This document shows positions 22,663 through 23,219 of a DNA stretch of 64,000 nucleotides, piece by piece. The position numbers and the translations under genes are program-made. A model generated the notes under the pieces. The model was not told the origin of the DNA and did no database searches. It was given only the letters and a program-made list of their open reading frames with translations. Origin of the DNA: Holothuria scabra. Its lineage: Eukaryota > Echinodermata > Holothuroidea > Aspidochirotida > Holothuriidae. Position 1 is the first letter of the stretch, and each line of letters begins with the position of its first letter. The stretch covers positions 8,613,371 to 8,677,370 of the forward strand of contig CM074185.1 in NCBI GenBank assembly GCA_037179385.1, written 5' to 3'.

Positions 22663-22860
22663 AATCAAATTGGTAAAGCTGGAAAATCTGGCTGAGGTGA
22701 AAAAAAGATGTTGACTCCACCGGGATTCGAACTCGGGACCTCCCGCTTTCTAGTGCGGACGCTCAAACCACTGAGCCATGAAGCCAAGTTGGTTTGGCCT
22801 TTCTTCAAATAACAGATGAAGCAACTCGCAATTCACCTCCTGAGCAGGCGCCTAATTTTT
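22663..22860 (-). repeat. tRNA-Ser-like repeat unit U1
   Basis: On the minus strand (22790 to about 22710) the unit holds GGCTTCATGGCTCAGTGG (box A region), a CTAGAAA anticodon-like loop (AGA, Ser) and GAGTTCGAATCCCGG (box B region). The acceptor-like arms GGCTTCA/TGGAGTC can pair with wobbles. It lacks the long variable arm of a true tRNA-Ser, has a mismatched anticodon stem and exists in at least three near-identical copies. I therefore call it a SINE or repeat head rather than a gene. Flanking unit sequence includes AATCAAATTGGTAAAGCTGG and GAGCAGGCGCCTAATTTT. Confidence 0.75.
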
Positions 22861-23029
22861 TGGAACAGCACTAGTTCTCGTTTGACGCAAGCCCAACCAG
22901 AGATCAAAGTTGATGCCATCCAGCTGAACACAATTGTTTATTCGCCAGCGGATCTCCGAAGAGATGCAGAAACCTGTAAAAGCAGAGATGAAGTGAAAAT
23001 AAACGCTGACGACAACTGCGTGGAATATA
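22861..23029. repeat. Body segment between two tRNA-like units
   Basis: About 170 bp of non-AT-rich sequence between U1 and U2, seen once here. On the minus strand it contains a small hairpin, ATCTC-TTCG-GAGAT (positions 22951-22967). The same hairpin with a CTCG loop occurs in the 3' region of the PLE fragment at 39565-39582. The open frame through it has no recognisable domain. Confidence 0.6.
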
Positions 23030-23219
23030 TAAATCAAATTGGTAAATCTGGCTGAGGTGAAAAAACGATGTTGTCTCCACCGGGATTCGAACTCGGGACC
23101 TCCCGCTTTCTAGTGCGGACGTTCTAACCACTGAGCCATGAAGCCAAGTTGGTTTGGCCTTTGTTCAAATAACAGATGAAGCAACTCCCAATTCACCTCC
23201 TGAGCAGGCGCCTAATTTT
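23030..23219 (-). repeat. tRNA-Ser-like repeat unit U2
   Basis: A near-identical, same-orientation copy of U1, ending at its right in (TA)n. Together U1-body-U2 has the layout of direct terminal repeats around an internal segment. Confidence 0.75.

Follow-up and report, generated by a model that had tools for sequence, protein, structure and literature searches.

The DNA analysed here, the window, is a stretch of 64,000 bp from the sea cucumber Holothuria scabra (C7:8613371-8677370 of a 1.19-Gb, 31-contig assembly). On its minus strand lies a copy of a short repetitive element (22663..23219), which consists of 1.5 head-to-tail monomers, is 5'-truncated at 23219 (monomer phase 173) and has its 3' end at 22663 (phase 370). 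An earlier note on this DNA had described the same stretch as two near-identical units, U1 and U2, placed round an internal body and bordered by TA tracts. The direct repeats are present (22680-22859 and 23040-23219, 180 nt, 96% identical, 360 bp apart), as are the intervening body of about 160 bp and the bordering TA tracts, one at the 3' end of the element (22569-22662) and one at its 5' end (23221-23395), the latter shared with the 3' end of a neighboring family, F2. The reading of these parts as two terminal units round an insert did not survive comparison with the rest of the genome. The 557-bp stretch has at least 115 matches there, its own place included (39 of 1053 candidates scored), most of them 94-96% identical over the full query, which excludes a chance arrangement. 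Many of these matches are runs with a period of about 369 bp on many contigs, and the window copy is therefore 1.5 copies of a tandem monomer rather than two units round a body. There is no ORF of 150 aa or more within 22663-23219.

Both repeats carry a tRNA-like module on the minus strand, the 3' copy at 22712..22785 (RF00005, 46.9 bits; ARAGORN 22710-22786) and the 5' copy at 23072..23145 (RF00005, 36.0 bits; also reported by ARAGORN). The module had been taken for tRNA-Ser(AGA); its tRNA-like character and strand hold, while the serine type is not established, since the variable loop is short and the AGA anticodon is a reading by eye. ARAGORN gives no amino-acid type for the sequence (anticodon 'ag'). 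A T-run directly 3' of the module (22700..22706, minus strand, by eye) is a possible Pol III terminator. The internal monomer junction GATTTATATATTCCAC (23020..23035, minus strand) is the presumed internal start of reverse transcription, and the body of the element contains a hairpin, TGCATCTCTTCGGAGATCC (22950..22968, minus strand), that by eye is also found as GCATCTCCTCGGAGATCC in the 3' region of the Penelope-like element (PLE) named PLE-A (39565-39582).

A solo unit, U3, proved to be the same element, 5'-truncated at phase 200 (37862..38031, minus strand), with a tRNA-like match of 50.5 bits (RF00005). It stands just before the PLE-A fragment (38226..39634, plus strand), beside which the earlier note had placed it; this fragment is 5'-truncated and retains pieces of a GIY-YIG-like ORF (Pfam 17.1 bits, below the cut-off of 22.6). 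The 3' end of PLE-A, ..CCGTTATGTTT, enters a TA tract (39631-39801), and in that tract, from the opposite side, sits a fragment of PLE-B with a GIY-YIG domain (39804..40531, minus strand; Pfam PF01541, 1.3e-06). A fragment of PLE-C follows (40566..41118, plus strand), with its 3' end ..CTACCTCTTTTCGAC in a TA tract and 80% identity to the PLE-C of a fetched locus, L013. Pfam finds no GIY-YIG domain in the window piece of PLE-C, which has a degenerate hammerhead-like core near 41036-41076 (by eye); we call PLE-C a PLE on the strength of the GIY-YIG-like domain of the L013 copy, which at 20.1 bits is just under the cut-off of 22.6.

Next to the element copy lies F2, a partial tandem with 92-100-nt repeats 314 bp apart (23396..23801, minus strand), the tRNA-like part of which (about 23511-23573) was recognized by eye and is called by neither Rfam nor ARAGORN. 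Just past F2 there are about seven copies of a 22-bp near-palindromic unit, GATAAACCTGGTTTATC.. (23932-24080). Spread along the window, as if they were duplicated genes, are three fragments of ORFs from the GH3 family (53-844, 14529-15611 and 49707-50819, minus strand; Pfam PF03321, 7e-32 to 2e-65); this family is better known from plants.

Insertion ends and copy numbers

We fetched 38 array loci, read them in the tRNA sense and numbered the monomer (369-370 bp, GC 0.459) so that it ends in ..ACCAATTTGATTT. With the window copy and U3 these make 40 insertions. Apart from U3 they are the 39 clusters with the highest scores, the window among them (39 of 1053 candidates scored), a choice that inflates copy numbers; and where an array has close to 1.5 copies, the 557-bp query itself tends to pick a complete 3' end. 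In 36 of the 40 insertions the element ends exactly at phase 370 on its 3' side, and it does so in 15/18 arrays of at least 2.5 copies, where the query imposed no 3' end. A TA tract of at least six units lies within 60 bp of the element on the 3' side in 36/40 insertions, on the 5' side in 36/40, and on both sides in 32/40. By a stricter count at the junction itself, a TA run is missing from the 5' side of 12/40 arrays and from the 3' side of 5/40. Templated TA addition would lengthen the tract on one side; the medians are 50 (5') and 78 (3'), with no significant difference between the sides (Wilcoxon p 0.27).

The 5' ends are scattered over 36 distinct monomer phases among the same 40 insertions. 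Their distribution in these query-selected arrays is not uniform (KS p 0.008), and 8 of 59 5' phases in all fall at 89-95 (scan p 0.003); the monomer sequence at this point is GAATAAAC, beside a long predicted stem. The set of 59 leaves out the cut locus edge (phase 260) of a long array on contig C1, counts L053 once and includes L057 and L065; phases of 1-2 (L015, L016, L045 and L065) are the limits of the BLAST matches, and a few more monomer bases precede them. In L053 (743-980) two 77-bp pieces of the element with the same ends, in opposite orientation and not identical, share one TA-rich stretch.

The exact 3' junction of the element (..ACCAATTTGATTT, then TATATA and a long (TA)n) occurs 425 times genome-wide, while the reversed-pattern control gave 0. 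From these we took 21 of the first 23 junctions listed on C1, omitting L018 (5.5 copies) and L022 (1.9), which belong to the arrays described above; the sample is selected by an unmutated 3' junction and a long TA run, which makes it uninformative on the 3' end. Its insertions range from about 16 and 26 bp up to 966 bp, with in addition the long C1 array, whose length is a lower bound as it was cut at the locus edge. Nine of the 21 are longer than one monomer and none lies within 340-400 bp, and 19 5' phases fit a uniform spread (KS p 0.54). The lack of a pile-up near full monomer length argues against a linear monomer template with a fixed 5' end.

Copy number per insertion thus runs from about 0.04 monomer to tens, and one C1 array holds at least 36 body copies over about 16.7 kb (40 of 1478 candidates scored). 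These numbers dispose of two proposals of the earlier note. A minimal element with pseudo-LTRs of its own, built as unit-body-unit, does not agree with continuous lengths and with at least 36 body copies in a single array, nor does a SINE dimer agree with the occurrence of the same monomer in any number.

Penelope-like elements and additional families with tRNA-like parts in the TA tracts

When the genome was searched for the GIY-YIG part of PLE-A (150 of 7666 candidates scored), at least five of the matches listed lay in open frames of 916 aa, two on C3 and one each on C5, C11 and C14. In the frame at C3:6097388 (L072) the middle part, 533 codons without a stop, holds a reverse-transcriptase domain (RVT_1, 37.9 bits against a cut-off of 29.6). 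Among the matches listed, PLE-A is tandemly spaced by about 3177 bp at C14 and C11; the C14 array (C14:7815572-7825613) has four listed matches with this period, in frames of 239-610 aa. The inner junction of PLE-A, ..CGTCATGTTTATATATTTC.. (GTTTATATATTTC), is found upstream of the 916-aa frame at C3:6097388 (L068) and between two C14 copies (L070), and can be set beside the internal junction of the element, ..GATTTATATATTCC... At its 3' end the C14 array reads ..CGTCATGTTTATATATATAT, that is GTTTATATAT(TA)n, and is followed by a diverged copy of the element (L071). The PLE-A 3' junction occurs 305 times genome-wide (control 0). Having the same partial tandems and the same kind of 3' junction, PLE-A appears to insert by the rule of the element.

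The earlier note had suggested that the element is a non-autonomous partner of PLEs. What we see supports a non-autonomous element that behaves as PLEs do, forming partial tandems, losing 5' sequence and ending at a fixed base in (TA)n. A tail shared with a specific PLE does not appear: over the 45 nt upstream of the ends the element is no closer to PLE-A (p 0.6) or PLE-C (p 0.39) than shuffled sequences are. The junction region of the element resembles that of PLE-A (8/1000 shuffles as good), mostly through one hairpin, TATCTCYTCGGAGATCC, but not the tail of PLE-C (131/1000 shuffles as good). A comparison of the PLE-A pseudo-LTR (pLTR) with the monomer gave 3/300 shuffles as good in one framing and 8/1000 in another. 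The pLTR was read once, over 460 nt, from a C14 tandem copy (L070); it contains neither the element unit, which the earlier note had proposed to look for in PLE terminal repeats, nor a hammerhead. Given the unlike tails and the mismatch of the element's junction region with the PLE-C tail, we name no particular PLE as the partner.

The element is enriched both near (TA)n and near PLEs, contrary to the lack of enrichment that the earlier note had named as a refutation. On C1-C3, a PLE-A 3' junction is found within 5 kb of 10 of 94 element ends, where random placement gives a mean of 0.33, and a listed PLE protein match is equally close to 5 of 94 (random mean 0.10). These counts draw on 94 of the 100 element sites listed (425 in all), 68 of the 100 PLE junctions listed (305 in all) and 26 of the 150 PLE matches listed. 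The nearness may result from the shared TA target alone.

Other tRNA-bearing families share these nests. One of them, family B, is a related tandem in L025 (1488-2400) with a period of about 360 and a 52-bit tRNA, and its similarity to the element (46.0) is well above the shuffle maximum (20.0). Its likeness to PLE-A was reached by 1/300 shuffles in one framing but by 124/1000 in the other, and as the framings disagree we do not claim it. The 5' end of the L025 insertion, in a TA tract, opens with an inverse copy of about 30 nt of its own post-tRNA sequence, a fold-back seen by eye.

The likeness of F2 to the element is confined to the tRNA-like sequence (score 20.0; shuffles reach up to 20.5), and F2 is no closer to PLE-A than shuffles are (122/300 as good). 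With PLE-C the outcome was different: the start region of F2, ATTACC..TTTTCGACCTACA..TTT..ACAGT, compared with the PLE-C end plus tail in L013, was equaled by 2/1000 shuffles, and the tails alone gave p 0.02. In L013 (3478-4930) a tRNA-like sequence distinct from the unit of the element stands upstream of the PLE-C fragment, and the post-tRNA leader that enters the PLE-C coding sequence was matched to F2 with 0/1000 shuffles as good. By eye, the L013 element ends about 40 nt past the usual PLE-C end, like the optional 'tail' of PLEs. The same locus has a long near-perfect palindrome between TA tracts (5120-5295, by eye, with hammerhead hits on both strands), which resembles PLE terminal repeats inverted head to head. 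A third dispersed repeat of tRNA-like character, typed as Thr or Ala by ARAGORN and scoring up to 70 bits, is present in L024 (4484), L026 (2058), L027 (3812), L042 (4840) and L039 (4362); in L024 a TA tract starts within about 60 nt of it.

Template, tRNA-like module and alternative origins

The arrays differ from one another more than their own monomers do. Among 111 full monomers from 39 loci, divergence is 0.44% within arrays (248 pairs) and 1.52% between arrays (5857 pairs), and for 91 of 94 monomers the nearest relative is in the same array; 48 of 159 monomer pieces were partial and were dropped from this count. In 10 of the 13 arrays with at least three full monomers, variants are private to one monomer, barring two homopolymer-run length changes, so that most arrays look as if they had been copied from one template monomer. 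The other three (L033, L043 and L044) have variants common to several monomers, which weighs against a single monomeric circle, as such a template predicts none. The internal junction is near-constant across multimers (UAUAUA in the RNA), its spacer being ATATAT in 98 cases and ATAT in 22, with a single form throughout each of 44 out of 45 loci. Where an outer TA tract is present at the 3' side, its length ranges from 17 to 192 bp. The simplest view of this difference is that the outer TA is target sequence and that the inner TATATA belongs to the element. The fixed 3' end, the scattered 5' ends and the homogeneity of arrays together point to reverse transcription from a fixed internal start on circular or multimeric RNA.

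That RNA need not have been a circle. The same retrotransposition could proceed from long linear multimeric transcripts of existing arrays with no RNA circle at all, to which we give a substantial chance, somewhat short of even. Such a template has been proposed for an Anolis PLE, for which the in vitro work described in PMC11167929 has unprocessed RNA as the main substrate. The alternating or shared variants between monomers in L043 and L044 would follow from it, and no circle-making hammerhead was found in the monomer with Rfam and two descriptors. On the other side stand the 10 of 13 arrays that look as if copied from one monomer, among them L021 with 8 full monomers, and the array of at least 36 copies and about 16.7 kb, which would need a very long template or later expansion.

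The negative result for hammerheads covers both strands of the monomer (Rfam scan at E<=5 and two descriptors). Applied to the fetched loci plus the window, the same descriptors hit 12 times (303 kb) and 9 times (327 kb), with 0 hits in five shuffles, and each of the nine hits of the second descriptor is followed by a TA tract no more than 400 nt away in the 3' direction. A hammerhead in L003, a descriptor hit that was checked, is not reported by Rfam, for which reason the Rfam negative would be weak if taken alone. Several distinct PLE-type hammerhead matches lie upstream of TA tracts (L012 2371, L019 2117 and 2419, L022 3344, L028 1294, L034 3724 and L046 2161), and that of L012 is of the type left unreported by Rfam in L003. 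PLE-C tails elsewhere (L022, L028) follow an intact minimal hammerhead about 80 nt before the TA end; judged by this position, the hammerhead and the tRNA-like module of these elements are comparably placed ahead of the TA end.

The tRNA-like module takes up positions 246-319 of the 369-nt monomer and scores 50.5 bits in most copies (20 loci scanned). In the 111 monomers, 8 changed cells fall in the 74 tRNA columns and 387 in the other 295. Columns with variants in at least two arrays number 0/74 in the tRNA and 13/295 elsewhere (Fisher p 0.08), the cells themselves not being independent. The RNA-sense monomer folds better than shuffled sequences (z -2.38, 1/100 shuffles as good), and in the predicted fold the UAUAUA site lies in a long unpaired stretch and the cloverleaf is not formed. 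Among the observations that count against our main reading of the element as a PLE-type retroelement are two more: the T-run within about ten bases after the module should stop Pol III, so that only a short RNA would result, and one element array (L015) is flanked by a LINE-type ORF (RVT_1 and zf-RVT).

It is also conceivable, though we think it improbable, that the module is an inert relic and that the element arose from a PLE pLTR simply by deletion. The body of the element does have its hairpin in common with PLE-A, and the tRNA-like leader directly upstream of the PLE-C fragment in L013 is placed as an intermediate might be. Against this, the module has far fewer variants than the rest of the monomer (8 changed cells in its 74 columns, 387 in the other 295; for shared columns the Fisher p is 0.08), and other tRNA-bearing families are found in the same nests. 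An origin at the DNA level, as a satellite whose extrachromosomal circular DNA re-integrates at TA tracts by microhomology, would account for tandem structure, homogeneity within arrays and insertion into TA tracts, but it predicts breakpoints at any phase on both sides, where we see one end fixed (36/40; 15/18 of the longer arrays) and the other scattered; pieces of about 16-26 bp with the same end also exist, though they were picked by that end. We regard such a satellite as very unlikely. Least likely of all is an ordinary, sometimes dimeric tRNA-derived SINE mobilized by a LINE, which the well-structured module (50.5 bits in most copies of 20 loci) and the common 3' end would suit, but which is at odds with a tRNA at 246-319 of 369 instead of at a fixed 5' start, a 5' end that is not fixed, up to tens of monomers and a TA-tract target.

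Proposed mode of propagation and relation to known elements

Insertions of this element have a predominant fixed 3' end at (TA)n, scattered 5' truncation, head-to-tail multimers and array-specific sequence. On this basis we consider that it is probably a non-autonomous PLE-type retroelement with a monomer of about 369 nt that contains a tRNA-like module, and PLE-type machinery is likely. It is the insertion pattern that leads us to see in it a PLE passenger akin to retrozymes; what the tRNA does, and whether the template is a circle or a linear multimer, we infer.

In the mechanism that we propose, a reverse transcriptase would nick a TA tract and begin cDNA synthesis at the internal UUUAUAUAUU of an element RNA that is either circular or multimeric, a start that we read from the genomic ends. 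Synthesis would run round or along several monomers and stop more or less at random, and the other end would be sealed in the TA tract, perhaps via TA microhomology. The enzyme would be that of a Penelope-like element, as the PLEs of this genome leave the same partial tandems and the same kind of 3' junction. The least certain step concerns the tRNA-like module, which might serve as a Pol III promoter, in handling by RNase P/Z or RNA ligase, or both, and which might stand in for the hammerhead of animal retrozymes and PLEs. For the Anolis PLE, PMC11167929 reports RNA in tandem form, cutting at AT-rich sites and a reverse-transcription start within the RNA, and subtraction from the figures published there gives about 55 nt of RNA needed beyond the start. 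If the element has a similar need, only a circle or a multimer would supply a 369-nt element with such downstream RNA. The hairpin common to the element and PLE-A lies about 60 nt downstream of the presumed start. Rotifer PLEs have been described with partial tandems and 5' truncation, and in one case with microhomology at a 5' junction (PMC3846280).

A wider reading, which we put forward as speculative and rather unlikely, would make the element one of several families (the element, family B in L025 and F2), each tied to its own PLE, in a PLE-driven class of circular RNAs, 'tRNA-retrozymes', in which a tRNA-like module replaces the hammerhead and host RNase P/Z and tRNA ligase make the template, monomeric or circular.

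Among known systems, metazoan non-LTR retrozymes have similarly short monomers (RNAs of about 170-400 nt; about 150-450 bp), low GC (46% in the element) and dispersed tandem arrays, from dimers to long multimers, with no long ORF in the description given by Cervera and de la Pena 2020 (PMC7229834); the circular RNAs of these short tandem repeats are, according to that paper, most likely closed by a tRNA ligase. They carry a type I hammerhead, whereas the element has a conserved tRNA-like module and no hammerhead that our searches found. PLEs have been suggested as the engine of retrozymes on the ground of shared hammerheads, and animal retrozymes, as characterized in the 2020 review PMC7761336, show no motif that reveals an autonomous partner; the 3' end and target of the element, in contrast, are of the PLE kind. 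With PLEs the element shares head-to-tail or partial tandems, 5' truncation, an AT-rich target and an apparent internal start of reverse transcription, as far as these are set out in PMC11167929 and PMC3846280. Unlike PLEs it encodes no protein (RT/GIY-YIG ORF), is 369 nt long and has a tRNA-like module, and the junctions seen in this genome are in (TA)n tracts.

Helenus and TRIMp3 are likewise non-autonomous and have a tRNA-like sequence inside their terminal repeats, but they are described as LTR retrotransposons with a primer-binding site, a polypurine tract and 4-5-bp target duplications (Kojima 2024, PMC10886601). The element has one fixed end only, an open-ended number of tandem copies, a TA target, in which target duplications would be hidden, and PLE-like tandems.

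tRNA-derived SINEs combine a tRNA-like module of Pol III type and a borrowed enzyme with the lack of a long ORF. The element resembles them in its module, in having no long ORF and, if our reading is right, in borrowing its enzyme; it differs in its internal tRNA, its 5' end that is not fixed, its multimers and its TA target.

Short non-autonomous Penelope elements are mentioned for butterflies in PMC6685494. Retrozymes, hammerhead-bearing PLEs and tRNA-bearing LTR elements are known already. We found no tRNA-bearing PLE passenger in the open-access literature on retrozymes, PLE partners and tRNA-bearing PLE elements, a scope that excludes most subscription papers and all preprints and so does not prove novelty.

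The genome described here bears on the origin of tandem copies in animal retrozymes and PLEs and on the enzyme that moves retrozymes. It has a non-coding tandem element and PLEs with one kind of target, one kind of 3' junction and hundreds of copies each, and it thereby offers a natural set of insertion products in which circular and linear templates, internal priming at UAUAUA, and a tRNA fold as against a ribozyme could be tested.
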